This document shows positions 5,470 to 27,000 of a DNA stretch of 29,903 nt, in pieces (positions within the stretch are counted from its first letter, which is position 1; each line of letters opens with the position of its first letter). The position numbers and the translations under genes were made by a program. This DNA comes from a virus: positions 1 through 29,903 of IMG/VR virus record IMGVR_UViG_3300035228_001474, one strand, 5' to 3'. Under the pieces are notes generated by a model, which had not been told where the DNA came from, did no database searches, and worked only from the letters and a program-made list of their open reading frames with translations.

Positions 5470-8400
5470 TTAATACGCCTTGATCATATATTTAGTCTTG
5501 TGGAATGGGGTCAGAATTGGAACTTGTCTCTGTGGGATCATTGTAACGTCAGGAATAGGTTTTTTGATACTTCTAGAAAACTTAAATGTTCCTGTAGTCA
5601 TGTCCATGAACAAGTCGTTTTGTGTGAATTGAATTGGAATACTCTCACCAACGCCACCAACGTTTCCAGTAGAAACTGTATTAACTACCATTAAATCTTC
5701 AGCACCAAGTCCTGGAGTATCAGACCATGTTGCTGCTGTCAATTCATCACCTACCGCATATCCCTGTCCAGCATTAACAATTTGATTAATTCTAATTCTA
5801 CTATCACCAAAGGGAGATCCTCCTAAAGAAGGATATGCTTGAATAGTATAGTTAATAACCATACCAGTACCAGCTCCATTATTACCATTTCTATAACGAA
5901 CTTCTTCCTCTACAATTAGTTCCTCTCCTGGTTCGGTCCAGTAATTTTGACCAGCAAGTCTATATGTCCACTCGCCAATAGTTTTATTTACAAGTTGCAT
6001 ATCATCATATGGTTCATTAAGACCTCTTCTTTCATACATTTGAAAAGAAAGAACAGCACCAACTTGACCACTAGCACTTAATCCAGCACCAAGTGGTGGA
6101 TTGGGGTCACCAGCACCACTAACATTACCACCAGAGAAGTCAGTATTGGGATTACCAACAACATTTTCAGTTATAAAATGACTATGAGTTCTTGTTTGTC
6201 CAGCAGATGGTGTATAACCAGCAACTCTAAATGTAGTATTTTTGTTATCAATTACACCAGCAGTTTGATTACCCCCTAGCCCTGCAACGTTTTGAAGAAT
6301 AGCGCCAGATAATCCAGAAGTATCAGATAACCACCATGTAGTAAAATCTTCTGTAAGTCCCTTATCGTCACCTGAATCATTGCCCAATCCTAGAGATGCA
6401 CCTTGAATTTCTGCGTATTCAGCGTTAACATTCTGACCTGCAGGTAAGTTGGCTTGCACCCACTGTCTAAGGTCAAAATCATTTCCATAATATTCTTTCA
6501 AGTTTATAAAGATACCAGTCCATACGCTCTGGATTCTACTTGCCCACGTATCCCAAATGTCACCTGAATCAATTGGGTCACTGCCTTTAATTTTCAGTGG
6601 ATAAGATTGTACTTCAGCAAATTGGAAACCAGCTCTACCACCAGATCCACCAGCACCCCAAGGTACAACAGATTCACCTTCATCACCATCAGAAACTGCA
6701 GAGAAATAGAAGTGATCATGTTCTGGAACTCCAACAATTAAAGACTGCAAAGGACCAATCGTTGCTGTAATACTACCATTGATACTAAATCCAATACTAC
6801 CTGTAATGGTCTCCAATCCACTAATTCTAACTGTACCAAGTGAGAAGAACCGTGAATTTAATCCATTATCACCAGATCCTTCAATTTGTTCCAGTGGTTG
6901 TGTGCCAAGAGTGTCTACTTTATCAAAATACCAGTATCCACCCTCAGATCCAACAACTTGAATATCACCACCAGAACTAGAAATAGGTAAGAACGCAGAA
7001 CTTCCTCTGCTACTATCAACAATACCCGTGCCACAAAGCTTTCTATTTCTATAATCAGGAAGTCTAAAATTACCATCGTACTTCGTCCAAGCACCAACTA
7101 CATTGTTATCTTCATCTAAAATATTTTCAGATGAAATAGTTACAGCTCCACCATAGTGTGTGCCAATAACTTCATATAATCCACGATATTGTGCAGCATT
7201 TAATTCCTGACCATCACATTCAATAAATCCTGGGTATCTACTAGCAATATCACTAGGAACTCTGGTCACAAGGTTTGTACCAGGATTATAAAGATCACCA
7301 TCAAGATCACCATATCCCAGAAAACTTTCTTTCATAATTGGAATAACAGTTCCTAATGCATAACCATCCTGTTTCCATGTTTTAATACTGTACCATGTTC
7401 CAGAATTTGATGGTGGTGTTGGTGCATTAATCCAAGTCCTTGCCGTCCAAACAAAAGTTGAATTGCTAGGAGCACCCGTACCAACTTGAATCTGTGTGGA
7501 TTCAGGAGAATTAGGAGTTTGACTTGAAGTTAAAATAGTAAGAGTAAATGTAGTATTTACATTAGGATCAAAAGTTCTAGGACCAGTAGTGGCTGCATCA
7601 CCATCAATAGAAATTAATGCATCATAACCAGATAAACGACTAATCTGAATTGGAGTATTAATACCACTAATAGTAACTGGAGCACTAGTCACATAAGTGC
7701 TTGGTTGTTGATTAGTTAAATCTTGTGGTGGTGTAAATGATGCAACAGTATCGGGACCATCGCTAGTCTTTACCTGCCATGTAGTAATAGGAACACCACC
7801 AACATTAATTTTTACAGTTCTGATTTGTCCACCATAGTTGGGTGCTGATTTAGCAAATAAAGCAAGTTTATCTCCAAGTGCAACAGTAGTTGGAAATGAT
7901 CCCAAAGATCCAACAGTACCATCTGCTTTTGTTACTCTAACATAGTATTCAGTTGCTGATGTATTAGTAGGATCTAACGTTACAGGAATATTAACTGTTG
8001 GATCAATACCACTAATTCCTGTAGGTGGCGCATCGGGTGATCCATATAGTGTATTAATTAGAGCATCGTCTACGTTATCAAATTGAAAAGGAGATGGTTC
8101 AGTATCAGGAAACTCCCCTGTCGTAACTGTCCAAGTATCACCATTTACAGCATCACCAATACTAATATTAGTGGTAATTGCACCAAAAGCAGATGTACTA
8201 GATACAACTCTCAACTGAACCCAATCACCATTAACAACATCACCAGATCCACCATTCCAAGTCACACCACTGAGAACTTCATACCCATCACCATTTGTAA
8301 ATGTAGTATTTGTGCTTGAATTAGCCCACTGTGCTGATGAATTTGTGAGGAGAAAAGTTGCAACAGAATCTGGAATTAACCCATCAATTCTTACTGGGTC

Positions 8401-9027
8401 ACTGTAAACATATGCTAATCCCGCTTCAACACCGTCAATATCTTCCCAATCAGGAAATGGATCTGGAATATTTTGCGCTGCAGATTGAGTTTTAACATTC
8501 CACGTTTCATTAGACATACCAATGACTAATGTAAGTAATGAAGTTGAGTTAATTGCAGCTTGAGTTCTTACTCGTACTTGAATTTTAGCATTATTTTCAA
8601 CACCAGTATTTGCGGGTCCAGTAAACCAATCAGTGTCCCAAGTTCCATCACCATCATAGTCAATACGTGCGCCAAAATAATCAGTTGCTGTATCGCCAAA
8701 AGGAATTGGAAAATTTGATGATACAGCAACAGCTGCTACAGAAGTATCAGTTAATCCAGTAACTGTAATAATGCTTTCTCCTGCACGATTACCATCACCA
8801 TAAGTATACATGGTATCTAATTCAGCACCATCTACCTTCTGAAAAGGAAATGGGTCTGGTGTTAAATCTTCAGGTTGTGTTTCAATATACCAAAAAGTAT
8901 CAAGCAGTCCAACACGAACTCTAACAGTAAGTGCTTGTCCCCAATCATCAGGAGCTTGAAACCTAAACTGTACGTAATCACCTTCGGATACGTACAGTGG
9001 TGTATTTGTAAATTGATAATCAGACAT
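5470..9027 (-). CDS. Tail fibre-like virion protein with tandem N-terminal domains and a tail-collar domain
   Basis: This is a structural fibre or baseplate-associated protein of 1185 residues. The N-terminal half (about 1-560) consists of four or five tandem beta-rich domains of 110-130 residues. Each boundary has a variant of W-x-V-x-T ... P-DPFPF ... Y-x-S, for example NETWNVKTQ, GDTWTVTTGE and TTWQVKTSDG. A phage tail-collar domain follows at about 597-670 (YPGFIECDGQELNAAQYRGL, then FRLPDYRNRKLCGTG). The C-terminal part has two HxH motifs, H770-D-H772 and H948-S-H950, like metal-binding sites in trimeric T4 fibre tips (gp12, gp37). It also has a GQGYAVGDELT segment that resembles GEGYAIGDQI in the giant protein. 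It ends KYMIKAY, similar to the other collar proteins here. Preceded by the largest gap of the block and a late-promoter-like box, it may start a transcript that includes the oxygenases. Confidence 0.88.
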   Translation of the reverse strand: MSDYQFTNTPLYVSEGDYVQFRFQAPDDWGQALTVRVRVGLLDTFWYIETQPEDLTPDPFPFQKVDGAELDTMYTYGDGNRAGESIITVTGLTDTSVAAVAVSSNFPIPFGDTATDYFGARIDYDGDGTWDTDWFTGPANTGVENNAKIQVRVRTQAAINSTSLLTLVIGMSNETWNVKTQSAAQNIPDPFPDWEDIDGVEAGLAYVYSDPVRIDGLIPDSVATFLLTNSSAQWANSSTNTTFTNGDGYEVLSGVTWNGGSGDVVNGDWVQLRVVSSTSAFGAITTNISIGDAVNGDTWTVTTGEFPDTEPSPFQFDNVDDALINTLYGSPDAPPTGISGIDPTVNIPVTLDPTNTSATEYYVRVTKADGTVGSLGSFPTTVALGDKLALFAKSAPNYGGQIRTVKINVGGVPITTWQVKTSDGPDTVASFTPPQDLTNQQPSTYVTSAPVTISGINTPIQISRLSGYDALISIDGDAATTGPRTFDPNVNTTFTLTILTSSQTPNSPESTQIQVGTGAPSNSTFVWTARTWINAPTPPSNSGTWYSIKTWKQDGYALGTVIPIMKESFLGYGDLDGDLYNPGTNLVTRVPSDIASRYPGFIECDGQELNAAQYRGLYEVIGTHYGGAVTISSENILDEDNNVVGAWTKYDGNFRLPDYRNRKLCGTGIVDSSRGSSAFLPISSSGGDIQVVGSEGGYWYFDKVDTLGTQPLEQIEGSGDNGLNSRFFSLGTVRISGLETITGSIGFSINGSITATIGPLQSLIVGVPEHDHFYFSAVSDGDEGESVVPWGAGGSGGRAGFQFAEVQSYPLKIKGSDPIDSGDIWDTWASRIQSVWTGIFINLKEYYGNDFDLRQWVQANLPAGQNVNAEYAEIQGASLGLGNDSGDDKGLTEDFTTWWLSDTSGLSGAILQNVAGLGGNQTAGVIDNKNTTFRVAGYTPSAGQTRTHSHFITENVVGNPNTDFSGGNVSGAGDPNPPLGAGLSASGQVGAVLSFQMYERRGLNEPYDDMQLVNKTIGEWTYRLAGQNYWTEPGEELIVEEEVRYRNGNNGAGTGMVINYTIQAYPSLGGSPFGDSRIRINQIVNAGQGYAVGDELTAATWSDTPGLGAEDLMVVNTVSTGNVGGVGESIPIQFTQNDLFMDMTTGTFKFSRSIKKPIPDVTMIPQRQVPILTPFHKTKYMIKAY
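7400..8900 (-). repeat. Tandem beta-domain repeats in the 1185-residue fibre (4-5 copies)
   Basis: Domain boundaries recur near 8890, 8500, 8110, 7770 and 7440, a period of about 330-390 bases. The shared pattern is W-x-V-x-T, then an acidic PD-x-x-P-x-PF stretch, then Y-x-S. The fifth copy (TFVWTARTWINAP) is degenerate. Similarity is at protein level only and boundaries are approximate. Confidence 0.65.
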
Positions 9028-9062: not shown

Positions 9063-12000
9063 CTATGGATTTACATTCCTAACATCTACCCATCCCCCAG
9101 TATTGTTTACTCGGACTTTTATCTCATAGTCAGATGAAATTTCTACAGGAACGTCAATATCATCAACTAGAAGCATATCAGTGGTTGCACCATCCAGTGG
9201 AGATCTAACATCTGGATCATCTTTAATCAACCCTAAACTATCTGGAATTAAAATATTATTTGGTGTTCGATCAATATTAACTAGAGTTGTAAGATTTAGA
9301 ACTTCAGTTCCTGCACTTCCTGTAGCAGTAAATCTAAATTTAATTGAAGATGGTCCAATATCACTCCAAAAAGTAGACATATCAAATTCAATTTCCTGAT
9401 CATCAACTGAATTAAATGCAGGTGCTACAGGATTTAGTTCAAAACTATCTGGATGCGGAAGAGTATCATCTGTGAATACAGATGTAGGAGATGTACTTCC
9501 ATCTAGATAAGTAAAAAATACCTCTAACTTCATTTCTACATCAGAATATTCAGTAGAATAATCTAATGTAATAGTTTCAGTATTATAATCAATAGTACCA
9601 GGAGCATTAGCTTCTAAAGTAACATACTGAGAAACTATAATAGTTGCACATACTGTGTCAGAAGTTCCACCAGGACCAGTAACAGTTCCACAGAAAGTAG
9701 AGCTATCAGAAAGTTGCACTGATGTTTGTGATGTTAATAGAGTATTTGCTATATTACCACTACTCCATGTTAGTGTAGTCCCAGAACCAGCTGGTGTTGT
9801 TGCCCAATTAATTTGAGTGTTTACATTAGGTTTTCTTACAGTTTCTTGTATATTAGTATCGTTCAATAACCAGATATTAAATACTGGTTTTGGAATAACG
9901 GTAACTGTTACAGATCTAGTTTGAGTAGTACCAGTTGTACCCTGAATCGACATTGTAAATGTGGTTGTTACACTGATCGTTAAATCAGCATGACCAGTAA
10001 ACGAGACAGGATTTCCACCATTGTAGTTTGTAATTGTAACTTGAGTAACCTCACCAAATGCAACCCACGTCAACTCAAATTCTTCATCCTCTTTTACACT
10101 AGTTTTGTCGGCAGTAATAAATCCAGATGGTGGTAGATCTTTGTTGTGACCTGGGATCCAACGCTCACCACTATCACTAGTCTCAAGAACAATAACAATA
10201 CCAGCATTGCTACATGCAGTTTCAAATGCATTGTAAGATCTCTGTACATCAACCGCTCTCATGGATCCTGAAATATCCAACCACACAGAAACATATGATC
10301 CTGCAGGAACATTTTGTAACCCGCAAATATTAAACCAGTTAGAGATATTTGAAGTCTCATCATCTCTGTTTACCTGTACAGTATACGAATATGGATCATT
10401 TAAGAAATTAGAAGGTCTATTCAGGACATTAAGTCCATAAGATGGATTGCCCTGTGGAGGATCTGTACGGAATGTAGCTTGTAGCAGATAGAATGTTCTA
10501 TTTGGATAATTGTTTCTAAACGATGTCCAATCACTCTGGTGTGTTGACACTGCTGGAGATGATTCATCAATAATTGAAATACATGTAACCAAATTAGTAT
10601 AATCAACATCTTCATGATTAGAAGTCTTTACAGTATCTGGATCTGCTTCTATAACCTCTATATCTACAGGTACACTACGAGAAGAAACTGTTTCTTCTAC
10701 AAATTCTTCTTCCTCTTTAGGACCATCAAATATTCCAAATATTCCACCAACTGGTTCAGCAAGAGGTCCATATGATCTAATTTTAGTCCAATTATTATCC
10801 TGATTTATATCAACTAATATGGGGTTTGAAGCTCTAATTTCAACAGGAATATCAATATCGTTGACTTGTATGTAATCTGATACGATATCACCTTCAGGAG
10901 ATCTAACATCTGGATCATCCTTAATTAAATCTAAACTCTCTGGAATTATAATATTATCTGGTGTCTGGTCAATGTTAACGAAAACATCTTGACTTGGAAT
11001 TGTCTCTGAACCACCGTCACCACTAAGTTCTAATGAAAATCTAATTAGAGATGGACCTCTAGGTCCCCATGATGGAGTATGAGTATAAGTTCCACTAGTA
11101 TCATTATCAGGACCTTTGCCAGATTCTGCTGAGTTTGCTAATGGTAAATCTACATTTGTGACTACATTATTATCATCTAAGTCAATTGTAGTAATTCTAA
11201 ATCTTACTTTTGTGTTGGCATACTTCGCTTCCCACGTAACATTAAAACTTACAGTGCCATAATCAATTACAGATGGAGCATTAAATTCTCCCTCTGGTGG
11301 TTCATATACAACAATTTCTACACTATACTGTGGACTAGTTCCACCAAGACCACTAACTTGCAATGTATAAGTTGTAGTAATTGTGGGTGTAACACTTGAT
11401 TGAGATGATAACAATGTATTAGTAATGTTTGCTGAAATCCAAGTAAGCGTAGAACCATCTCCACTAGTAATCCAATATAATGTTACAGTTTCTCCTCTTT
11501 TAATATAATATTTGTCAGCGTAAAAATTAACTGTAGGTGGTTCATATACAATTACTTGTTTGTCTGCAGTAACACATATACCAACAAAACATGCAGTTAA
11601 AGTATAAGTTGTAGTTGAATTAGGACTAACACTTGTAGTCTTGTTAGACCCAACTGCAACAGCACCAACACCTTGATTAATCGATGCAGAATCTGCAAAT
11701 GATGTAGACCATTGTAATGTAGTAGATTGACCTCTAATAATTGCAGCTGGATTGCAAGTGAAACTAGTAATTGATGGATTTTGCAAATCATAATAAACAT
11801 TTGCGAATCCAGCGCCTGCATTTTGTGTTCCTGAATTGTTATTAAAACTACAGTAGGTACTATTATAACCAGACTGACCGCCGCCACCGCCAACACCGCC
11901 ACGGTTTTGGTCAACGCCATATGCACCACCTGCACCGCCAACACAACCACCGCCGCCGCCGCCACCACCAGATCCGTCAGGACGATCTGATGGTTCACTT

Positions 12001-15000
12001 GTATTCTTTTGACCAGTACCACCAACAGTACGATTGCTTGGATTTCCTGTTTGTAATCCTGTACCTGTCCCACCTTGAATGCCTGGTCTACCTAATGCAC
12101 CGCCTCCGCCGCCGCCGCCGCCGCCACAAACAGCAACCCATGTATTGCTAAAAGTATCGAAAATACCACTAGCACCACCACCGCCACCACCAGCGCCAGA
12201 AGATCCATTATCAGCAGAATTTCCACCCGTTCCACCACTAGCAGCACTTGAACTGCCTCCACTAGCACCAGCGCGATTTCCACCGCTTCCAGCATTTCCA
12301 CCTTCATTTCCGAGATAGAAATCTAATCTTCTAGCAGTAAAATTAGGAAAATAGATATTTGCTCTTCTTCCAGCGCCACCAGCGCCACCAGCACCATTAG
12401 CATCAGATCCACCTCCGCCACCCCGAGCAGCAGCAAGATCTACACGAACATTAATCGCATTTGAAGGGATCTGAATAGATCCAGCATATCCTCCATTACT
12501 GTTAAAAGCTTGCGCTACCTGTGTTGTTACACTCTCTGGATCTGCTTCTATAACCTCTAGATCTACAAATTCTTCTTGAGTAGAAACTGTTTCCTCTACA
12601 ATTTCTTCTACAAATTCTTCTTGAGAAGAAACTGTTTCTTCTACAAATTCTTCTTCCTCTTCAGGACCATCAAAACCAACAGGTTCAGCAAGAGCTCCAT
12701 ATGATCTAAGTTGAGTCCATTCACCAACATTATCAGTTCTTACTAAGATCGGATTTGAGGCTTTAATTTCAACAGGAATATCAATATCGTTGACTAGTAT
12801 TAAATTAGAAGTAACTGTTCCTTCTTCAGGTGATCTAATATCTGGATCATCCTTGATCTCATCTAAACTATCTGGAATTATAATATTATCTGGTGTCTGG
12901 TCAATTACAACAAATATGCTGTAATATCCACCATCATCAGGGAATTGTTGTGTTCCACCGTCTCCCTCAACATTCAACCTGAATTGAATGTATCCTGGAC
13001 CTCTATCACCCCAAGTAGGTGTATATGAAAGAGTTTCTGTACGTGTGTAATCAATAGGATCTGCATTTGCTAATGCCGTATTAGTAACTTCTAAATCAAT
13101 TGTCTCCATAACTGTTGAAACATTATCAATATCGAGATAGATTACATCTATTGTATTTGCAATATTAGCATAGTTTACAGTATATTCAATATCAAAAGTC
13201 TCTACACCGTAGTTGATGGTATCTGGAGCATCCACAGAACCTGTTGGAAGTTCAAATACATTAACTGTCAGAGTAAAGAAATCACTAAATCCACCAAGTC
13301 CATTTGCTCTAGCAGTATATTCAGTAGTTTCTTCTGGACATACAGTTACTGTACTAGTAAGAAGAGTGTTAGAAATATTTCCAGCGGTCCAAACAAATGT
13401 ATCAGCATCTCCAATAGTTCTCCACGAGAAAGTTACACACTCGCCTTTCTTAATTTCAACAGTGTAAGGAGCAGTTATATCGGGCGCTGGTGCCGAGATA
13501 CTATAAAATTCAATTTTTGGTCTATAAACAACATACAGTTCAATTCGTCCAGAACCTCCATCATTTGCTGGGGTTACACCAGCAATACCAGCAGTTTGTC
13601 CACCACCTCCGCTTACAATATTATGAGTAGTTCCTAAAGCATAAGTTTCCGAAGCTTGAAATTGTGCTCTAGTAATCGTTCCTGAAATAGCAGCACCGCC
13701 ACCTCCTCCCATACCAATAACACCAACTTTAAGTCCAGTAGTTGAAATAGTAAAACAACGAATATAACCATTAATAGCGTTCCCGTTTTGAAACCAGAGA
13801 CTTATTCCACTAGAACTTTTATAGCGATAACCTTGATACGTATAAGGTCCTTTACCAGTACCACCACCAGCAGCTTGATTACAAACACCACTAACAGAAA
13901 AAGACCAAGAATTATTTACATAAGGAGTAATAAAACTCAAATTATAATATTTTCCATTTGTTGGTCTGGATCCAGTTAATCCATCTGGAGCACCTGGATT
14001 TACATAACTCAGACTAATATCAGCACTAGAACCAGATTGACTAAAATTATGTACGTTATTTGCGTTATCAAAAACGTGATATGAAGATGAAGTATATGTT
14101 CTAGCTCCTGTAGATCCATTACCACCACCACCATTTACAGCATTACCTAATTGACGCCCTGCTCCACCACCATTGTTAGTAATATTGCTAATCGTTGGGA
14201 ATGCATATGATTGTGAATTAGTACCACTAACCATGGTGAGAGAAACACCACGACTACCCCACCCATAATCATCAGTGGCTATACCACCTTTACCAGCATC
14301 AACTACATCTCGTTTTCCTTTGTTTCCTCCTCCAGCAGTTAATCCTAAAAAAGTACTAGCAGCACCATCACCACCAGAAGTTCTTATAAATGGATCAACA
14401 CTATCATTTACATTTTCTCCTGCTCCACCACCACCCCAAATTTTGAATTGAACGTATGCTATATCAGGATCAATAGTAAAAGATCCAGAATTAAGTACTA
14501 GAGTATCTGCAGTAGTCTTTACAATAATTGGATCTGCTTCTACAACTCGAAAATCATTAGAAACTTCTTTAATTGTTTCGTCTATTTGTTCAAATTTTAC
14601 TGCTTCACTAGGTTTTTCTACAAATTCCTCTTCCTCTTCAGGACCATCAAATATTCCAAATATTCCACCAACTGGTTCAGCAGGAACTCCATATGATCTA
14701 AGTTTAGTCCATTCTCCAGTATTATCAATTCTCACCAAGATAGGATTTGAAGCTATGATTTCAACAGGAATATCAATATCGTTGACTTGTATTAAGTCAG
14801 AAGTAGCTGTTCCTTCTTCTGGTGATCTAATATCTGGATCACCTTTAAGAACATCAATAGTTCCTGGAATTGCTATATTATCTGGTGTTTGGTCAATATC
14901 AACCAAAACATCTTCCCTTGCAAGTGTTGTTGAACCACCATCACCACCAAGTTCAAATGAAAATCTAATTTCAGATGGACCTCTAGGTCCCCATGATGGA

Positions 15001-15842
15001 GTATACGTATAGGTTCCATCTCTTTCAGTGGCAGTTGCTGCAGCACCAGTTTCTGCAGAGGTTGCTTTTGGCGTCAAAGATATATTTGTGACATCATTAT
15101 TACCATCTAAGTCAATTGTAGTAATTCTAAGATTTTGTTTTGTATTAGCATACTTTGCTTCCCACTCAATGTCAAAAGTTTCATCACCATAATCAACTGA
15201 AGATGGAACAGAAATTTCACCTGTAGGCGGAGAATTGACAGTAACTGTAACTGATTTGGTAGTACTCCCACCTGCTCCAGTAACTTTACATTGGTAAATT
15301 GTTGTACTTGTAGGAGTAACGTTTTTATTCGATGTTATAAGTGTATTATTAATGTTTCCTTTAAGCCACACGAGCTTATTAGCATTTCCAGTAGTAACCC
15401 ACTTTATATTAGAACTGTCGCCAAGCTTAATAGTACTTGGAGTAGCAGTAAGCGTTACTGTTGGTGGATCATATGTACAACTTCCATCGTCAAAATCTGC
15501 ATTTGAATCTGTGTTATTAGCAGTGGAATCTGTACATCCACCAACAGGACATCCACCAGTAGAAAGTCCTGTGTGTTTACCATTTGCATTAATGCCATTT
15601 AGTTCTCCACCAGCGCCACTAAGAACCATCGCATAAACGCTAGAAAATCCTCCATTATCTGCTGAATTCCATATAGTAACCCAACCTTCTACTCCACCTG
15701 ATTCACCCCATCTACCGAATAAAGTAACATACTGTTGTGAAATTTGTGATCTTAAATTTCCACCATCAGGAACATACATCGTATAGGAAACACAATTATT
15801 TGTGTCTCCATGTTTATAATAATGAGCGGTTTGATATCCCAT
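9063..15842 (-). CDS. Giant modular tail fibre/adhesin with Ig-like, glycine-rich and vWA-like domains
   Basis: This 2259-residue virion protein is probably a host-contacting fibre or adhesin. Approximate order by residue: N-terminal domain (1-98); GCTD...DDGSC motif (102-122); Ig-like (127-202); module copy 1 (203-430); glycine-rich domain 1 (435-778); Ig-like (780-865); copy 2 (866-1100); glycine-rich domain 2 (1105-1355); two Ig-like (1355-1515); copy 3 (1516-1740); vWA-like insert (1741-1900) with D1856-I-S-G-S-M1861; two Ig-like (1901-2070); copy 4, cut short at the C-terminus (2071-2259). The Ig-like domains share GNI-NTLLTS and TTTYT strands. Each module has WGPRGPS or a variant, TPDNI, DDPD-RSP and NDIDIPVEI; copies 1-3 add an acidic EEEEEFVE linker. 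It starts one base after the previous stop (TAAAATGG). No collar domain or signal peptide is present. The mosaic build suggests frequent recombination at the host-recognition end. Confidence 0.88.
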   Translation of the reverse strand: MGYQTAHYYKHGDTNNCVSYTMYVPDGGNLRSQISQQYVTLFGRWGESGGVEGWVTIWNSADNGGFSSVYAMVLSGAGGELNGINANGKHTGLSTGGCPVGGCTDSTANNTDSNADFDDGSCTYDPPTVTLTATPSTIKLGDSSNIKWVTTGNANKLVWLKGNINNTLITSNKNVTPTSTTIYQCKVTGAGGSTTKSVTVTVNSPPTGEISVPSSVDYGDETFDIEWEAKYANTKQNLRITTIDLDGNNDVTNISLTPKATSAETGAAATATERDGTYTYTPSWGPRGPSEIRFSFELGGDGGSTTLAREDVLVDIDQTPDNIAIPGTIDVLKGDPDIRSPEEGTATSDLIQVNDIDIPVEIIASNPILVRIDNTGEWTKLRSYGVPAEPVGGIFGIFDGPEEEEEFVEKPSEAVKFEQIDETIKEVSNDFRVVEADPIIVKTTADTLVLNSGSFTIDPDIAYVQFKIWGGGGAGENVNDSVDPFIRTSGGDGAASTFLGLTAGGGNKGKRDVVDAGKGGIATDDYGWGSRGVSLTMVSGTNSQSYAFPTISNITNNGGGAGRQLGNAVNGGGGNGSTGARTYTSSSYHVFDNANNVHNFSQSGSSADISLSYVNPGAPDGLTGSRPTNGKYYNLSFITPYVNNSWSFSVSGVCNQAAGGGTGKGPYTYQGYRYKSSSGISLWFQNGNAINGYIRCFTISTTGLKVGVIGMGGGGGAAISGTITRAQFQASETYALGTTHNIVSGGGGQTAGIAGVTPANDGGSGRIELYVVYRPKIEFYSISAPAPDITAPYTVEIKKGECVTFSWRTIGDADTFVWTAGNISNTLLTSTVTVCPEETTEYTARANGLGGFSDFFTLTVNVFELPTGSVDAPDTINYGVETFDIEYTVNYANIANTIDVIYLDIDNVSTVMETIDLEVTNTALANADPIDYTRTETLSYTPTWGDRGPGYIQFRLNVEGDGGTQQFPDDGGYYSIFVVIDQTPDNIIIPDSLDEIKDDPDIRSPEEGTVTSNLILVNDIDIPVEIKASNPILVRTDNVGEWTQLRSYGALAEPVGFDGPEEEEEFVEETVSSQEEFVEEIVEETVSTQEEFVDLEVIEADPESVTTQVAQAFNSNGGYAGSIQIPSNAINVRVDLAAARGGGGGSDANGAGGAGGAGRRANIYFPNFTARRLDFYLGNEGGNAGSGGNRAGASGGSSSAASGGTGGNSADNGSSGAGGGGGGASGIFDTFSNTWVAVCGGGGGGGGGALGRPGIQGGTGTGLQTGNPSNRTVGGTGQKNTSEPSDRPDGSGGGGGGGGCVGGAGGAYGVDQNRGGVGGGGGQSGYNSTYCSFNNNSGTQNAGAGFANVYYDLQNPSITSFTCNPAAIIRGQSTTLQWSTSFADSASINQGVGAVAVGSNKTTSVSPNSTTTYTLTACFVGICVTADKQVIVYEPPTVNFYADKYYIKRGETVTLYWITSGDGSTLTWISANITNTLLSSQSSVTPTITTTYTLQVSGLGGTSPQYSVEIVVYEPPEGEFNAPSVIDYGTVSFNVTWEAKYANTKVRFRITTIDLDDNNVVTNVDLPLANSAESGKGPDNDTSGTYTHTPSWGPRGPSLIRFSLELSGDGGSETIPSQDVFVNIDQTPDNIIIPESLDLIKDDPDVRSPEGDIVSDYIQVNDIDIPVEIRASNPILVDINQDNNWTKIRSYGPLAEPVGGIFGIFDGPKEEEEFVEETVSSRSVPVDIEVIEADPDTVKTSNHEDVDYTNLVTCISIIDESSPAVSTHQSDWTSFRNNYPNRTFYLLQATFRTDPPQGNPSYGLNVLNRPSNFLNDPYSYTVQVNRDDETSNISNWFNICGLQNVPAGSYVSVWLDISGSMRAVDVQRSYNAFETACSNAGIVIVLETSDSGERWIPGHNKDLPPSGFITADKTSVKEDEEFELTWVAFGEVTQVTITNYNGGNPVSFTGHADLTISVTTTFTMSIQGTTGTTQTRSVTVTVIPKPVFNIWLLNDTNIQETVRKPNVNTQINWATTPAGSGTTLTWSSGNIANTLLTSQTSVQLSDSSTFCGTVTGPGGTSDTVCATIIVSQYVTLEANAPGTIDYNTETITLDYSTEYSDVEMKLEVFFTYLDGSTSPTSVFTDDTLPHPDSFELNPVAPAFNSVDDQEIEFDMSTFWSDIGPSSIKFRFTATGSAGTEVLNLTTLVNIDRTPNNILIPDSLGLIKDDPDVRSPLDGATTDMLLVDDIDVPVEISSDYEIKVRVNNTGGWVDVRNVNP
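9066..9630 (-). repeat. Fibre module copy 4 (truncated, forms the C-terminus)
   Basis: This is the last copy of the beta domain plus DDPD-RSP segment (NILIPDSLGLIKDDPDVRSP). It ends VRNVNP before the SYG-AEPVG stretch and acidic linker found in the other three copies. Boundaries are approximate. Confidence 0.7.
10140..10622 (-). other. vWA-like insert domain with DISGSM (MIDAS-like) motif
   Basis: This segment between module copy 3 and the next Ig-like domain contains SYVSVWLDISGSMRAVDV, a hydrophobic strand ending in the D-x-S-G-S pattern of von Willebrand A metal-ion-dependent adhesion sites. A helix-like QRSYNAFETACSNAG and the strand IVIVLE follow. An earlier CISIIDESSPA strand has a similar shape. 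The domain is only about 160 residues, so the fold is not certain. Confidence 0.5.
10640..11295 (-). repeat. Fibre module copy 3
   Basis: This copy has the beta domain, NIIIPESLDLIKDDPDVRSP, NDIDIPVEIRASNP and a GGIFGIFDGPKEEEEFVEE linker. It shares an exact 42-base stretch with copy 1 and an exact 35-base stretch with copy 2. Boundaries are approximate. Confidence 0.8.
10720..10761. repeat. 42-base exact direct repeat, copy in module 3
   Basis: These bases are identical to 14641-14682, about 3.9 kb away in the same gene and the same frame. They encode the AEPVGGIFGIFDGP stretch. Confidence 0.9.
11780..12530 (-). other. Glycine-rich fibre domain 2
   Basis: An opening strand pair (SIQIPSNAINVRVDLAAARG) leads into dense glycine tracts (up to nine in a row), as in phage glycine-rich adhesin domains. 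Comparable tracts form polyglycine-II helix bundles in T4-like gp38 adhesins. GC content rises sharply here from runs of GGC codons. Confidence 0.7.
12106..12125. repeat. CCG/GGC trinucleotide microsatellite inside glycine-rich domain 2
   Basis: Twenty bases of uninterrupted CCG repeat on the plus strand read as six consecutive GGC glycine codons on the minus strand, followed by GGA GGC GGT. A tract like this can change length by slippage in steps of one glycine without shifting the frame. Confidence 0.9.
12545..13245 (-). repeat. Fibre module copy 2
   Basis: This copy has the beta domain, NIIIPDSLDEIKDDPDIRSP, NDIDIPVEIKASNP and an expanded acidic linker with repeated EEFVEE/VETVS-type units. 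It lacks the GGIFGI stretch before FDGPEEEEEFVE that copies 1 and 3 keep. Boundaries are approximate. Confidence 0.8.
13510..14540 (-). other. Glycine-rich fibre domain 1
   Basis: This is a second, longer glycine-rich domain. It opens SFTIDPDIAYVQFKIWGGGG, the strand-then-glycine pattern of phage glycine-rich domains. Later tracts include GGGGAAISG and VSGGGGQTAG, and it closes with a strand (RIELYVVYRPK). It is less repetitive than domain 2 and holds aromatic-rich segments between glycine tracts. Confidence 0.65.
14540..15235 (-). repeat. Fibre module copy 1
   Basis: This copy has the beta domain, NIAIPGTIDVLKGDPDIRSP (with KGDPD where the others have KDDPD), NDIDIPVEIIASNP and GGIFGIFDGPEEEEEFVE. 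It shares an exact 42-base stretch with copy 3 at 14641-14682. Boundaries are approximate. Confidence 0.8.
14641..14682. repeat. 42-base exact direct repeat, copy in module 1
   Basis: This is the partner of 10720-10761. Exact DNA identity, including third codon positions, suggests recent duplication or gene conversion between modules. Confidence 0.9.
15477..15539 (-). other. GCTD...DDGSC motif (calcium-loop-like) near the fibre N-terminus
   Basis: Residues 102-122 run from GCTDSTANN through the aspartates of NADFDDGSC. This matches the G-C-x-D-x-x-A-x-N...A-x-x-D-D-G-S-C motif repeated in many secreted Bacteroidetes and marine phage proteins. Two cysteines bracket an aspartate-rich loop that could bind calcium. 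Only one copy is present. Confidence 0.75.
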
Positions 15843-15843
15843 T

Positions 15844-16737
15844 TTAGAATTTAATTAAGTATTCTACCAAAATGTAAGGAGTAACAAGATCGTCAATTTT
15901 TTCAATTTCTGCAGTGTCAACATCAATAGATACAGAAACTCCACTTAAATCAATTTGGGTTTGTGGGTAAGTATATGTAAAATCACTACCATATGATAAT
16001 GGCGGTTGAATGCTATGTTTATGAATAGATTCACCACCCGCTTGATTAACTACCCCTAACATATGACCAGCACCACTATTACCAGGAAGATTACCACCAG
16101 TTTTACCACCCTGAAATCCTATAGCATGAGAGGTTTGAAAATTCAAGAGTGTTGGAAAAGCTTCATGAGTATGACCTTGAAAGTTACTAATATCAAGTTG
16201 AGTTTCTGAAGTAGCACTCGCAACATTATACGAAGCGTTGCCCAAAAAATTTAATGTTGCACTAGGACTAACCTGAACATTTCCAGTGTAAAAAGAAGCA
16301 ATGGTGTTTCCAAAGTTAGAAACAACCTCTACCTGTGGTCCAACTCTACGTGTTCCATTTGTGATTGCATCTGCAGTTCCATCATCAACAAAATAGTTAT
16401 TGTAAATACCCGTTCCTCTTCCACCTGTAATAACTTTAGATCCTAGATCTGGAAGAACAAATTGTCCCAAATCTCCTTGTTCAGCATCTGCATCTCTTGG
16501 AGTTTGGTTGTCTTTTCTAAATCTACTTTCTTGTCCAACACCCAAAACTTTAGATAATGCAAGATAATCTTTTGCATTTAAAATAGACCCATCACATTTC
16601 AAATATCCTGCAGGGATATCATTTTTAAATCCTGCTTCATTTGGATCATTTGCTGTCGAAATATTGGGAGTGGAGTGGATGAGGATAGATCCACACATAC
16701 CACCATATTTTCCTCTTTCTCTTGAGTAATTTGCCAT
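15844..16737 (-). CDS. Tail-collar domain virion protein (short fibre-like)
   Basis: This is a 297-residue structural protein with a phage tail-collar domain at about 40-110: IPAGYLKCDGSILNAKDYLA, then GQFVLPDLGSKVITGGRGTG. Two HxH motifs follow, H189-T-H191 and H239-K-H241, as in T4 gp12 and gp37, where such pairs in a trimer bind a metal ion. The C-terminus (ILVEYLIKF) matches the strand ending the other two collar proteins here. It starts one base after the upstream stop (TAAAATGG) without a visible Shine-Dalgarno sequence, so translation is probably coupled. It is shorter than T4 gp12 (527 residues) and lacks a long shaft, so it may be a fibre tip or baseplate spike. Confidence 0.87.
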   Translation of the reverse strand: MANYSRERGKYGGMCGSILIHSTPNISTANDPNEAGFKNDIPAGYLKCDGSILNAKDYLALSKVLGVGQESRFRKDNQTPRDADAEQGDLGQFVLPDLGSKVITGGRGTGIYNNYFVDDGTADAITNGTRRVGPQVEVVSNFGNTIASFYTGNVQVSPSATLNFLGNASYNVASATSETQLDISNFQGHTHEAFPTLLNFQTSHAIGFQGGKTGGNLPGNSGAGHMLGVVNQAGGESIHKHSIQPPLSYGSDFTYTYPQTQIDLSGVSVSIDVDTAEIEKIDDLVTPYILVEYLIKF

Positions 16738-18059: not shown

Positions 18060-21000
18060 TTAAACGTTGATTAGATACCAACCAGTACGGGAAGAAGGAA
18101 CAGATTGACCACTTTCACCTTCAACTATATTACCTGCGTAAACTAGAGCGAAAGCAGCATATGGTGTTTGTACAACTAATTCACCACCGCCATGTGTTGC
18201 ATATTGAGAAGCAGGAACACCAGTTAAGAGAGACGATCCAGTATTAGAACCATCATTCATAACCCTCTGGTTTGTAAGAGCTCTTATAACCAGTGATACG
18301 TTATAAGTCAATGCCCCACCAATATCTATAATCCTAATCATATCACCCATTTGAGCATCTCCTGGTAATTTAACAATTGTATTGCCTCCAGCATTAATGA
18401 AGTAATTGACATTAACTTCTGCGGGAATGACAGCATCGGCACTGTACTCCCACTTACGTCCACCAGTATTAGAGAAGTAGTTTGATTGACCAGCAACAGT
18501 AACAGAACCATTGTTAAGAACCTTGAAGATCTCATCGCCAGCGATGTTCTTAATGGACAACTCTTGATCAAGTTGAGTTCTTCCAGCACCATCTTGATAC
18601 TTGAGATTAATACCACCCTCGATATCAAGTGATCCGCCAAAGTATGAGATACCACTACCTAGAGCAGATAGCGAACCATAGACAGTTAAGTTTCCATTTG
18701 ATCCGTCAAAATCAAGTTTTGGATCAGTTAAGTCTGCAACACCATTGTTATCAACTCCAAAGAACTTCATGCTACCAGTGCTGTAGATGCTACCAGTTGC
18801 AGTATCTACCTGGAAGGTAACAGCTTCAGTTATCTCAGAGTTTCCACCATTTGTTAAAGTTAAGAACTCAGTACTACCCTGCTCAGTAACCTTGAACAGT
18901 TGCTCTGGTTGTGCAAAGACTGTAGTTCCCCTTAAGGTAATTGTATCATTAGTAGTCAACTTACCTGTGGTAGTTGTATCACCAGTTGAAGAATCAACGA
19001 TAAAGCGGTTAAATCCTGCACCAGCGTAGATATGACCAAAGATGAAAGTATTACCAGTTGTAGATTCTACACGGAATGTATCATTTGCACCACTTGGATC
19101 ACCAGTATTAACAATCAGAGACTGCGGTGAGGTGCTGATTAGTGTCTTGACAGAAACAAATTCACTCTTACTTAGTCTGAGGAAATCTCTAGTAGATAAA
19201 CTTCCGCCAAACTCAGCAACGCCAATTCTTATATCTCCACTACCACTACCAATTCCTGATAATGGTTCATCTAATTGACCATCTGAATCAAGGTCAGATC
19301 CAGTGATATATGAGGCATTAGACTGCTTAATAAACTTAGCAATGTATGTCTCATCAGGGTGATTGTTATAAATTCCCGATCCATCCGCTCCACGAGAAAC
19401 GATCAGTCTATAACCATTTGTGTCTGAAGGATTGGTAACGTTTGCAATACCCTCAATACGAAGAATTTCACTCTCAGCTTGATTTCTCAATCCAGTAATC
19501 TGATTAGGACCTGAACCAACTGTATCGGGTGATAGATCACTGCCTCTGTCGATAAAGAGAAGATCGCCACGAGAGAAATCAGTAATTGCTGGTTCATCAA
19601 TTGGTAGATAATAAAGAGTGCCAGTATCAACAACACCTTGAACAATGAATGTTAACTGACCTGCTGGTAGTGTTGCATCAGTTTCAGTACCACCAATATC
19701 TCCAGGTTGAATGATTATTTGATCTCCAATCGCATATCCTTCACCAGGACTTTCCAGAGTAAGTTCAATTGTCTTATCAAATCTAACAAGAAGAGTAATA
19801 GTTGCACCAGAACCAACACCATCAGTAGTAGTGTTAACGAAAGGATATGTACCTGGTCGTCTAGAATCACCATTGGTGTTAACAACAGTATCGAATGTAG
19901 AGATTGCACCACCAGCGACTAGATATGATGTGCCACCCCAAGGAGCAACACCACCAGTATCAATTCTTCTTCCAGTATCCACATACTGATAGAAGTCAAT
20001 ATTAGAATTTTCTACACCACCAATAACATGAGGAACGATAGTAGTATTAAATCTACCTCTTTCGATCTCGATAATACCAGCATTTAGACCACCGTCTAGT
20101 CTGATGTTACCTTCAACAATCGCAGAAGCAAGAACATTTAAAGTGTTTCTGATAGTTGTTGTACCACCAGTAGATCCCATTTCAAATGTAGTTGCATTTG
20201 TTCCAAGTTTAAGAGTATTAGTTAAATCACCATCAAATGCTCTAACAGATCTTGTACTAGAGTAAATTCTGGATTCACTTGATCCTTCGCCTTCACCAGA
20301 ACCAAATTCAACTTCTTTAGATTTAATATTAGTAAAGAAAGTATCGATATTAGTGACAGAATTAGTTGTGCTTCTAGTAACATATCCACCACCAAATCTG
20401 AGTTGACAAATACTTGAAGATTGGTTCTGTACAGTTGCTAGATCAACAATAGCATTCTGACTATTGGTATGAATTCTAAGCGTTGAATCTACTGCAGTAG
20501 TACCAATCCTAACATGCTGATTAGAAGTGCTAGTACCTAAGTTGATTTCTTGAGGTAAGGTTGTATTAGTAGCGATGTTAATACGATCTGCAACACCAAA
20601 CAAGTTAACTCTTACTGCATTTGCAGGAGCAAGAGCGAAATCAGTATTAGTTGTAGTGATATCACCACCGTTAACCTCAAGATCACCAGTAATCTCTAGA
20701 TTTTCATGAATTCTAGCATCACCAACAACAACAAATGTCTTATTGAGTTCCTTATAAGGATTAATGGTGTCCTGAACCTTGGTATTAATACCCAACCTAC
20801 CACCATTGGTGGTCATTACTCTCAATACAGAAGTGTCATCTGGATCAGTACTATCACCACCAACTAATAATGCATTATCTTGTTCTGTTTCAACCTTGAG
20901 AGTTGAAGTTTCAGTTAGATAATTCTCAATAGTCTTACCACTGATAAATGCAGTACCAACAACATCGAGGTTTGCTCTAGGAGATGTTTCATCAGAAACG

Positions 21001-24000
21001 AATGCTGTTTGAGAATCAATGTGAGCAGAACGTGCTACTGTGTTAACTCCAAGTTTAAACTCACCCCATGTATCAGTATTTGTTCTAAGTGCTTCAGCAC
21101 CTAGTACACCAAATTCTTTCCAAATTGCCTTAGAAATTTCAACTAATGGAGTTTGAGTTCCACCAGGACGTGGTGGAGAAGAAATAACTGCACTTGCCCA
21201 GTTCTTAAGAGATACATCTTGATTAGTAGCAACCTGGAAGTAAACATAGTTATCTTCAGGATCAAATGGATCTGCTGGGTTATTGTATACTGTCCAAATG
21301 CCATTCAGATCAATATTAGGCCAATAGTTAGAAAGTTTGATCTGCGATGCAGCGTCAATTCCAATACCCTCAAGATCTTTATTCTTGATATTTTGCTGTG
21401 AGAAACTATCGAACCATACAATTTTAACAACTGTAGTCCCATCAAACTCAATAGTTGAGATGTTACCGTTGTTGACATCTTGATAGAAGTTAGCGTTAAC
21501 CCAACCGATAGAACCAGTTTTACCAACTTCTAGACCCTTGAGTAAGATATCACCAGATCTTGCAAGAACACCATTGTAATTAACAAACTGGTTAACATAT
21601 ACTCTGGTTCCACCATCTCCAACTAGAGGAGAGTTGTTGGGTGAGATGTTGGAAGGAATTCCAGCATATTCGTGTGTTTGGATCTGATAATCTTGTCCAT
21701 CTCTTCTAGCAGTAATACCAAATAGAGCAGCTTGAACTCTATTCTTGCTAATACGAATGTCACCCTTAGTTCTAGGTCTAAAGTTATCATTGTCAAGACT
21801 TTCGTCTTGCTGCTCATTTGTTACAGGATCAATCGAAGATACGTTAGAACGAATGATTAGACAATCACGAACTTCAGTTAGATCATTATCTTGTACACTA
21901 ATAACAATTGGAGAACTGAATGTGTTTGGTAGATCACCATCACCACCAACAACTGTGATGTTCTGATTGAACGTTACAGGAGTATTGAAGGTGGTAACGA
22001 GGTTACCGAGATCATCATCTTCGTCCTCACTATCAGTTAGTGCTGCTCTTTCAAGGAAAGTTTCTTCACCCGTGATAGCGTTAATCTTACGGTTACCAAT
22101 ATAGAGGTCACCGTTAGAGTTTAGACCCGTGTAGAAGACGATACCAGCGTCTTGTTTCTTACTTTGGGCGTAGAAGTCCTCAGTAGGTGATAAGACAATC
22201 TCCTGACGTGCTGGGAGACCTGTGGAGTAGTTTCCTGGACCAAATCCAAGATACTCAAACGTATGGTTACCTGCACGAGCAATAGAGGGTCTTCTAAGTT
22301 CAACATAGTAACGCTGATCTGAAACAACTGTGCTAGTACCAGAGATTGAAATCTTACGATCTTCTGAACCAGAAGTTGCATTACCAATTTGTGCTTCAAT
22401 TTGTGCTTCATTAACAAAGTCATAATCTTTGAATGCTGGGTTAGCAATCAGATCTTCTACAAGTTCTCTAGTTACAGATCCCTTGAAATCGTTAGTAGTA
22501 ACAAGACCGTGGACATAATTGTTAGCAGCAGAATATGTTGCTGGTGGATCCAGTAGGTTTTCAACGATAGCAAGTTCTTCGGGACTTGTACCTGCTTTTT
22601 GGAACCAAAGAGGATCATTCTTATAGTTCAAAGGATACAAGCTGCTGACTGGTTGAGAGAACTTGTACTTTTTAAAGTTCTCAGTTACACCAGCACCTTG
22701 TGGGAATGGGGAAATATTACCGCGTAGACAAGAGAGATAGTAAATACCATCTTGCTGACCTGAAATTCTACGCTGCAGGGTCTCGTAGTTGAAGACATAG
22801 AAGGTATCTTCAATAACACCAGCATCTTCAACACTGTCAACATAGTATTCGTTACCAGCATCATCTTGAATAGTATCACCAGGAGTGATAGTATAAACGT
22901 TAGCGCCGTTTTGCTTGTAATAATACTGGGGATATTTTTTGCGGATTAGTGTTTTTAGAGGTAGCGATTTGCCAAAATCTTGATCGGTAAGCATGTCTGC
23001 AAACACAACCGTGCCATTGCCTTGATCCTGTGTAAACTGAACATTAGCATAATCACTGAACTCTAGTTTACCACCACGAATATTTTTGAGGATGAGGTAA
23101 TGCTCACCACCAATAGAGAAATACTGGTGAATATTAGCAAGACCTGAAGAATAACCACCCCAATAAACGCGGCTCTCTTCTGTTTGCTCGGTCTTATTGA
23201 CAATCCAATCACCACCTTGAGGTGCATTAATTTGAACTGTTGTAAATGTTTCGTTCTTTAGACCAGAAAAGTCAACAGCGTTGATTGTAAGATCAAAGAC
23301 TGTTAGTTCTAGGTAGTTGATATTAAAATCAAGAGGATCCTGAACTTTAACAGCACTCTGAATAGTTGCTTGGATACCAGAATTAAACTTGGCAAACTTA
23401 GCATACTGGATACCATCATTGGTAAGATCTTTTCTGTATGGATCATATGACGTGTCAATGTCAAGATTTGCCGCATCAAACTCAAATTGATTGAACCCAA
23501 TCTTTTCAGCAGCTTGCACTGGGTTTCTAAAGTCTGCAGTATAAACATTACCAGCGACTGGCTTGAGTAGAACTCTCTGTGGTACTAATTTACGTGTGTC
23601 ATCAGTTCTTGTCTTGATAACAAATCCATTAATAGGATCTCTAGCATTTGCAAGATACTTAGGAATAACATAACGTAATTTGTATGTTCTATCATCTGCT
23701 TCACGCTTATCTTCAATACGAGTGAACCACATATCTGTGGATCTTCTTCTATCAGCAAGATCTTGCTGATTAACTCTCCAGATAATATTCTGCTCGTAAG
23801 TGGTGGAAGGTATGCTAGTAATATCAGCCTCATTTTTACAATTCACAAACCACTTACCAGTGTCAGCAAATGTATTTGTAAATCCAGCATCAAATCTTAC
23901 TGGTGATCTACGCTTGTTAGCATACATCTTGAATGAATAATTACCAGGAACAAATCTTACAGGATCGTTTTCATTAATTGCATCACTATGTGAAATGTAG

Positions 24001-27000
24001 ATGGTAACAGTCTTATCATTCTCATATCTTACATAAAACTCACTATTGTAGTTAAGTCTGCCGAAGTTAGCGTTAAGATTGTCAGTAGTAGCAATGAATG
24101 GATCTTCTGCTTGATTGGTTGATCCCGCACCAGAAGCACCAGCAATAGAGGGTAAATCATTACCTGGATTTGCTCTGAAGAATACTCTCTGAGGTTCTAC
24201 AGAAGCGAATGGAACATCAAAGATGTGAGAAACATCAGTTTCAATACCATTAGTAACAGAACCACTTAGACTACAAGTGTAGCTGTGTAGATCATACTTA
24301 ATGTCAAGGACAAATTGGTAGATATCAATCTCAACATCCCTATCAATACTATCAGATTCAGATGAGTAGATGTAAATACCTGCTGCAGCATTCTCAGGTG
24401 ACGTTGCGAGCATCAATTTATTTTGTGCTGCAGAATCAAAGATACCAGTAGCGTTAGCATAGTCAGTTGGTTGTGTCCTTCTACCAGGAGCAATTACATA
24501 GTATGTTGTGTTAGTTTCAAATCCATTAGGTAGTCTGACAAGACGCTTATCGACATCAACATACTCTCTCTTAGTTAAATCAAAGCGAGGACGTGGTACA
24601 AGTCTAACAGGAGTTCCAGTCTCAAACTCATGTGGGTCAGTATTATTAACACCAGGATCAGTATTAATAGTAAAGATTGTTGATCTCTTAGTAAACTGAC
24701 CAGGATCAGCAGTAGATTCTACTCTAGTTACCGTGCCAGGACCACTCTGAATAACATCAATAATATCACCAACCAAACTATCGATTGTAGCTTTAACACC
24801 TGCACACTCAGGATATAGATCATCTTGAATAACTTCAGGATTATTTGCAGCATTTCCAACATCGGATAGTGTTGGTAAAGTATCTGCCCATACACCCTCT
24901 TCAAACGTGAAGTATAAGTTAGTTGATTCAGTCTGGTTTGCATTTCTCAACTCACCAATATTGAACTTAGATCCTTTAAATCCTAGTTCAATGTTCTGGT
25001 TGTCAACAATTCTCTTGATATATGTCTCATCAGAAATGTTATCAAATATTTGAATAGCACTTGGTACAAGTAAACCGTTAGTTCCATATGGAGCATTACC
25101 ACCAGTCTCATCGTATTCAGCAACCTTCATGCCAATCAAGAGACCCTTAGTATCTCCAACGTTGACGATTGCACTACCGAAAGTAGTATCACAATCCTTA
25201 ATAAGAACATCAAAGTTTCTCATGGCAGCAATTGCCATGTCTCTTACATACTTCCAAGCATCAACAGTCTCAATTTTCTCGCCATCAATGTAGTCAAGTT
25301 GAGCACCACCAGTAATTAGAGCATCAGTAGAAGCTCTTACGAATGTATGTGTAACCTGGGGTAGATGCTTAACGCAATTTGCACTCGCTCCTGTAAACTG
25401 ATGAACAGATTGTGGTTCGTGCTTGATAGCACCAGTAGTTGCGCTGATGAAGTAATGGGTAGATGTGTCAGATGAAGTACCAACGTTGAGAGTAAATGTT
25501 CCGTCTTGACGTTGAATGCCACCTGCAACAGCACTGACGAAGGTATGAGTACCAGTGTAATCAGAGCTACCTACGTTGATATCAAATGTATTTGAAGTTA
25601 CATTAGAGATTGCCAACCAGCGACCTGATGGATAATCGTAATTAGCGCGAGGATATGTCTTCTCAGAAACATTACCATCTAAGTCACAAGTATAAGTTAG
25701 AGAATTATTTGCAATCTGGACGTAATCACCATTGCTAAATCCATGGTTTGAAACCGTAAGAGTTACAACTCCAGTTGCTGCGTCATAAGGAGCATCGGTT
25801 GCTGTATGTACAGAATATCCAACACTACTAATAGTGATAGACTTACCTGCCCAAGGATCTTGACCAGGACGTGGATAAGTATGCTGAGTTGCACGATTAT
25901 CTAAATCACACTCAAAGGTGAATGAATTATCAACAAATACAACGCTGCGTCCAACACCAAGACCATGTTGTGCAACAGTAACAGTCATGTCACCTGTTAC
26001 AGGATTGTAGATAGCACCTGTTGGAGTAAATGCTACATTAGGACCAGATACCCCAGCATTAATGGTAATCGTAGTTGAAGATCTAGAAGTGATAGGCATA
26101 GACCTACCAGAGAAAGGATCAATACCAGAGCGAGGATATGACTTGACCGAATCATTATTATCCATGCCGCAAGTGAACGACAAAGAATTGTTATCAATTA
26201 CAACGCCTTCACCAACAGATAGATCATGAGCACCAATAGTTAGTACCAGATCTCCTGTAGAAGGGTCATAAGTAGCACCAGATGGGGTGAATTCTACGTT
26301 AGGACCAGATGCACCAACGTTACAGGTAATACTATTAGAAGTAACTGAAGTAACTTCAATCGATCTGTTGGCATATGGATCAATACCAGGACGTGGATAT
26401 GTCTTCTCTGACTGGTTGCCATCCATGCCACAAGTGAACGTGAACGAGTTATCAACAAGCCTGATGTTTCTTCCCTGCTCAACAGTATGGTTGGGAACAA
26501 CCATAGTAAAGTCACCAGTTGCAGGATCATAAGTAGCAGAAGTTGGAGTATATCTAGTTTCTGTAGATGTACCAACATAGTATGCTTCACCAGCTTGAAT
26601 GCTATTAATGTTACCACCAAAGCGTAGGTCATTAACTACAGCATCAACGATGTAAGAAACATCACGATAGCACTTGGATGATGTTGGATCATTATTAAAT
26701 CCACCATTATTAATTGGAGGTAGTCCACTTAGATTACTATCAATAACTGCATCACTTGCGATATCGAATAGAGTTTCAATTGTAGAACGAACGTTAGCAC
26801 AATCCCAATCACCATGAGTGAGAGGTGGAAGATTTGATAGAGATGCAAATCCAGAGTTACCTTGACCAGCAATAGCATCACTAATAATTCCAACTAACGT
26901 ATCGATTGTTTGTAGAACATCAGAACAATTACCAATTTGATATCCAACCTCACCAGAAGCACCAGTGATTGATTGTGGTTGCTGTGGAACAGATCTTGCA

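Follow-up and report, generated by a model that had tools for sequence, protein, structure and literature searches.

Four units of a cyanophage tandem gene family in one open reading frame: a candidate modular tail adhesin array

The window analysed here is a whole virus record of 29,903 bases (IMGVR_UViG_3300035228_001474). On its minus strand (9063..15842) a single uninterrupted frame encodes a protein of 2259 amino acids, P0001, in which four members of a tandem gene family found in the Kyanoviridae, the T4-like cyanophages, are fused head-to-tail. Judged from sequence, this open reading frame (ORF) is the extreme fusion of its family, having four units where the other fused ORFs have two or three. 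We consider it probable that the family makes a modular tail adhesin array in which the repeats of the C-terminal tail (C-tail) and linker act both as shared docking elements and as recombination arms; receptor binding, docking and the role as recombination arms are the parts of this reading that we infer.

Architecture of P0001

A profile search placed four copies of a module of approximately 170 amino acids at residues 211-382, 872-1046, 1521-1689 and 2079-2255 of P0001, with scores of 166-195 bits each and E values from 1e-50 to 1e-59; the profile was seeded on the protein's own four repeats and then widened with relatives. The DNA repeats concur: a 102-nt sequence occurs in four copies within the ORF and a 131-nt sequence in three at 79-80% identity, and stretches of C-tail and linker DNA repeat at up to 93% over 99 nt. 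The four-copy module described in the initial annotation is thus borne out. Each copy closes one unit, and the order within a unit is cargo, one or two Ig-like domains and then the module itself, which consists of an Ig-like half and a C-tail some 65 residues long with the pattern TPDNI...DIDIPVEI...W..R. The initial annotation described modules and cargos accurately, but it left out the Ig-like domains, one or two of which precede every module in P0001. It also saw three unlike cargos between the copies, which we recognise as the glycine-rich G1 and G2 and the DISGSM-bearing alpha/beta domain V, while overlooking a fourth, Y, at the head of the ORF.

All of the following features lie on the minus strand, and the module copies are those found by the profile search. 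Unit 1 begins with cargo Y (aa 1-120; 15483..15842), which starts 'MGYQTAHYY...' and has a GCTDSTANN..DDGSC motif at its end, and continues through an Ig-like domain (15213..15482) to module copy 1 (Ig-like half and C-tail, TPDNI...RSYG; 14697..15212). Acidic linker 1 (14505..14696), which ends VVEADPIIVKT and whose DNA is near-identical to the start of linker 3, leads to unit 2, made up of cargo G1 (aa ~447-780; 13503..14504), an Ig-like domain (13230..13502) and module copy 2 (12705..13229). Acidic linker 2 (12525..12704) is followed by cargo G2 (aa ~1107-1352; 11787..12524), two Ig-like domains (11283..11786) and module copy 3 (10776..11282); acidic linker 3 (10611..10775), predicted to be disordered, is followed by cargo V (aa ~1745-1905; 10128..10610) with its invariant CxSxIDE and DxSGSM motifs, two Ig-like domains placed by a fold model (9609..10127) and module copy 4 (9078..9608). 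Acidic linkers stand after copies 1-3, and the ORF stops four residues past copy 4, which lacks a linker, as the initial annotation had it.

Pfam gave no match to P0001 above its cut-off, and neither Pfam nor PHROGs gave a match to the families of the T4 long tail fibre proteins gp34-37. P0001 matched phrog_2155, phrog_29022 and phrog_9770, all 'virion structural protein'.

The gene family and its genomic slot

Megablast of the window DNA against named phages gave no match, and the comparison was thus made at the protein level. With tblastn, 49 phage records were matched, all of them marine cyanophages or related marine viruses; more loci came from IMG/VR scans with profiles of the module and of the V domain, and removal of near-duplicates left 135 non-redundant complete ORFs, the window's included. 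One module is present in 120 of them, two in 11, three in 3 and four in the window alone. In annotated genomes the family occupies a shared slot that runs from a tail collar gene through the units to a short tail fibre gene of ~3 kb, a 2OG oxygenase gene and a tail assembly chaperone gene. The window ORF sits in this slot, between the genes for a tail collar protein (15844..16737, minus strand; phrog_4714) and a short tail fibre or Collar-domain protein (5470..9027, minus strand; phrog_4924), and its four matches to the C-terminal module (TPDNI...DIDIPVEI; E <= 1e-50) make it a member of the family, although in place of the usual, non-defining trait of one unit per gene it has four units in one ORF.

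Elsewhere the slot holds two separate genes (S-CAM4), three (S-PM2, S-RIM32, S-RIM44, S-H9-2, Syn1 and S-CAM1) or six (S-CAM3), a module ending each gene, and partial fusions are found in ACG-2014e and ACG-2014j. Consecutive separate genes mostly range from a 4-nt overlap to 3 nt apart. Because the units of relatives are separate genes, the linkers of the window mark joints between genes that are separate elsewhere. The absence of a linker after copy 4 had been read as a chain cut at a module edge; instead, since the ORF ends no more than four residues from the last module in 131 of the 135 non-redundant complete ORFs, copy 4 is the normal C-terminus of the family.

The S-PM2 (p223-p225) and Syn1 (Syn1_035-037) genes belong to the Kyanoviridae 'virion structural proteins' T4-GC 737-739 and 1047-1048, with the same three PHROGs as P0001. 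These proteins have the gene slot, the unit layout and the C-terminal module in common with the window; they differ in being two to six separate genes or partial fusions, whereas in the window all four units are in one ORF. The family is assigned to the virion by annotation; virion proteomics has been published for S-PM2, Syn9 and S-SM1 (PMC3037559).

The short tail fibre genes provided two observations of their own. In the S-PM2 record (L005, 1035-5862) the short-tail-fibre gene is very large, and a cluster of tRNA genes is annotated within its coding sequence and on its strand, perhaps through overlapping annotations. In the window, upstream of the array, positions 18060-29888 encode a short-tail-fibre-like protein of 3942 amino acids (phrog_4527) with internal repeats of its own ('TPTSATYDPATGD...').

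Exchange of cargos and homogenisation of C-tails

Cargo types (Y, V, G1, G2/G4, T/N, G3 and F) were assigned with seed profiles; T/N and G2/G4, which are related, were pooled in tests. Single-linkage clustering had been tried twice and gave one group only, Ig domains and multi-domain cargos having chained together. By the seed profiles the set of cargos and their order vary from phage to phage. All four cargos of the window are also found as N-termini of separate genes in other phages, cargo Y in S-CAM3, S-H9-2 and AG-345-P14. The initial annotation had proposed that relatives be compared for differing numbers of modules or differing inserts, and had named a single fixed architecture as the outcome that would speak against interchangeable domains. 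The outcome favours interchangeability: across the family there are one to four modules per ORF and two to six per genome, with many cargo types and orders.

The comparisons of close relatives indicate that whole cargos are exchanged between phages. The flanks of locus L098 are ~80% identical to the window DNA on both sides, and it encodes a 1701-aa fusion, G1-N-V, as the counterpart of Y-G1-G2-V. The G1 and V cargos of the two are orthologous (73% and 87% amino acid identity, respectively), while N is of another cargo type than G2 and Y is absent from L098, the G1 of which starts with the start Met of the ORF, at the domain edge. The S-RIM44 isolates Np_42_0711 (Np) and Sn_08_0709 (Sn) are 98% identical in DNA on either side of the variable region. 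Their first genes are 85% identical, and the second has cargo T in Np and cargo G1 in Sn; from residue ~401 of 486 onwards, at the C-tail border, the two are again 98% identical. Some ORFs (L001 13745, L008 6175, L034 5075 and L065 4537) have in their first unit a double head, in which T-type and G2-type cargos stand in series before the Ig domains.

The cargos could be assembly, decoration or head-associated parts, with their variation the product of relaxed constraint, and the 'head and packaging' category to which PHROGs assigns the family is in keeping with such parts, as is the want of a clear fold match for V in a PDB search. We judge this unlikely: the neighbours of the array are collar and short-tail-fibre genes and a gene annotated as a tail assembly chaperone, the combination of sequence conservation within cargo types and exchange of whole cargos is unlike relaxed drift, and other adhesins of phages have tips made of glycine-rich domains (PMC9608196).

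Among 40 dereplicated loci, C-tail identity was 0.647 within a genome compared with 0.483 when units of one cargo type were taken from different genomes. When genome labels were shuffled within cargo types the permuted identity was 0.476 with a maximum of 0.506, and none of 1000 permutations reached 0.647, with the qualification that the loci are unequally related and phylogeny lies outside the permutation model. The Ig-like half of the module showed little such effect (0.346 vs 0.315). In the window, tails 1 and 2, and tails 2 and 3, have 81-83% identical codons at conserved residues; tails 2 (G1) and 4 (V) have 65% and 48%, respectively, when set against their L098 counterparts, and the cargos ahead of these two tails are better conserved between the window and L098 than are the tails themselves. 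Thus heads follow type and tails follow genome and, on these identities, C-tails are homogenised within each genome.

Codon-level homogenisation in the window, together with DNA repeats of 79-93% identity, is the mark expected of gene conversion, and recombination alone could explain the homogenisation, which counts against the adhesin array that we favour. The C-tail might then be conserved and homogenised solely as a recombination hot spot that has no docking role. This we think improbable: in an alignment of 42 divergent module copies, most of the positions that never or hardly ever vary fall in the C-tail, and almost all proteins of the family have it as their end.

Predicted folds

In the AlphaFold2 model of unit 4, which had a mean pLDDT of 70, residues 1-56 are a disordered linker and residues 63-200 the alpha/beta cargo; three beta sandwiches of Ig-like form follow. 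The C-tail (504-566) is unresolved, with pLDDT <50, and may appear unfolded only through the shallow alignment (15 rows) behind the model. In a fold search of the PDB the stalk resembled Ig repeats of bacterial adhesins and cell-adhesion proteins; such matches dominate when the whole unit is searched, making that search uninformative on cargo V.

These models bear on the proposal in the initial annotation of a shaft of repeated spacers that displays interchangeable domains. Its interchangeable cargos are supported by the differing cargos of relatives. A single long fibre shaft, designed as one chain with the modules as structural spacers, would be in accord with the units held in one chain by the window and some relatives, and with fused ORFs that have only Ig domains between certain modules (e.g. 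L044 and L036). It is nonetheless an improbable account of a family in which 120 of 135 ORFs encode separate one-module proteins ending at the module, and in which the predicted C-tail lacks the fold of a rigid, ordered spacer and the only linker in the model comes out disordered.

Cargo V gave a good model when taken alone (pTM 0.81), and the DISGSM/DTSGSM motif, invariant in 15 members, lies where a strand gives way to a helix. This model found only generic alpha/beta matches in the PDB, none at E <= 0.001 and no vWA domain among the best 50, and V had no vWA match in Pfam. The description of this cargo as vWA-like therefore holds for the DxSGS motif, but V as a plain vWA domain was rejected after the fold search. 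In P-SSM2 (L095, 8629-9219 and 9221-9817) and in L096 (5629-6829), V is divided between two small neighbouring proteins, each with its part at the C-end, and the DxSGSM motif is degenerate (FVDGGTSS / FIDDSNAT), as if two chains might together complete one domain. The P-SSM2 proteins PSSM2_216/215 ('L-shaped tail fiber protein assembly' and its neighbour) are thus like the window protein in having V, as two halves at their ends; they differ from it in that no module and no Ig stalk were seen and in the degenerate DxSGS.

Gly_rich_2 (PF21722) matched the G1/G2 cargos of some relatives weakly (5.8e-7 at best, also 3.8e-4), and the G2 profile weakly matched chains of the ALK receptor ectodomain (E 0.007). 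In the cyanophage Pam3 the adhesin tip is formed by glycine-rich domains with a TNF-like part (PMC9608196). The glycine-rich heads G1, G2 and G3 are reminiscent of the tips of Pam3 gp24 and phage S16 gp38 (TNF-like plus glycine-rich; PMC9608196), but those are single distal fibre tips and the link to the window is confined to PF21722 and the weak ALK matches.

A candidate adhesin array

In the adhesin array that we consider probable, each member of the family comprises an exchangeable N-terminal cargo, which most likely serves as a head that binds a receptor or surface, followed by the Ig-like stalk and the conserved C-terminal module. Each unit would dock through its C-tail, either onto a partner in the virion that all units share or onto its sister units, and any cargo bearing the genome's own C-tail would fit. 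The near-identical C-tail and linker DNA would provide homology arms for moving cargo cassettes and for joining neighbouring genes and, in the window, flexible acidic linkers would join the units covalently, fixing a 1:1:1:1 ratio and keeping four unlike heads together. The PHROGs category of the family is a point against this reading. More tentatively, we suggest that marine T4-like cyanophages could possess a combinatorial adhesin array with a lineage-specific C-terminal plug common to all units of a genome, whole heads that are swapped as cassettes, a unit number tuned by duplication and repeated fusion into multi-headed chains; such an array might be a part of the long-missing host-recognition apparatus in which docking is C-terminal and the heads N-terminal, opposite to known multi-spike complexes.

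The branched tail-spike complex of the Ackermannviridae consists of TSP1-4 with XD/TD docking domains; its receptor-binding heads can be exchanged while the assembly domains that carry them are conserved, and the conserved ends are proposed recombination sites (PMC11414711). If our reading is right, the two systems would be analogous in having several receptor binders, conserved assembly domains and swappable heads. The comparison is by analogy only: docking in the Ackermannviridae is N-terminal and Gp10-like and the heads are C-terminal, whereas in the window the conserved part is C-terminal and the heads N-terminal. That receptor-binding heads can be swapped on a conserved assembly part is in general already known; the reversed order, the Ig stalk, the homogenisation of the tails and the multi-unit fusion differ. 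A literature search, with most subscription journals outside its reach, found no prior description of this array.

Cyanomyoviruses have no recognisable wac, g10, g11, g12, g34, g35 or g37, and it has been suggested that structural proteins still lacking an assignment are the missing fibres (PMC2984593). The Kyanoviridae tandem family is a concrete candidate for these, being modular and exchanged between close relatives. Swapping of cargos that carry genome-matched tails suggests a plug-in set of parts that may bind the host and, since the S-RIM44 isolates differ in cargo makeup, the relationship of cargo set to host range is directly testable. The order of N-terminal head and C-terminal tail, combined with multi-unit fusion, illustrates from nature a way in which a phage may bring several heads together in a single structure.

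Fusion junctions

Several fused pairs were seen across the ORFs (Y|G1, G1|G2, G2|V, T|V, G1|V, Y|V, T|G1 and N|x). The linkers that follow the C-tails often start alike (R-x-[IYTF]-G...) and some fused ORFs may therefore descend from one fused ancestor. In the fused V units of the ACG-2014e type, a Met in the linker (NSMPTKPGVYYIKP) matches the start of the separate V gene (MPIPREPGTYYIKG) and is likely to be the trace of an old start codon. Assembly error is an unlikely source of the window fusion: contigs L016 and L017 span the junctions of units 3-4 and of units 1-2 at 91-92% identity, although they come from one sample, are not fully independent, and leave the unit 2-3 junction uncovered. 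The 27-nt gaps of ACG-2014i-type phages were considered as remnants of lost linkers and rejected, their in-frame reading giving only stops. In some fused ORFs there are units with no recognised cargo, in which the linker runs straight to Ig-like sequence (L044, L047, L053 unit 2, L036, L040, L076 unit 2).
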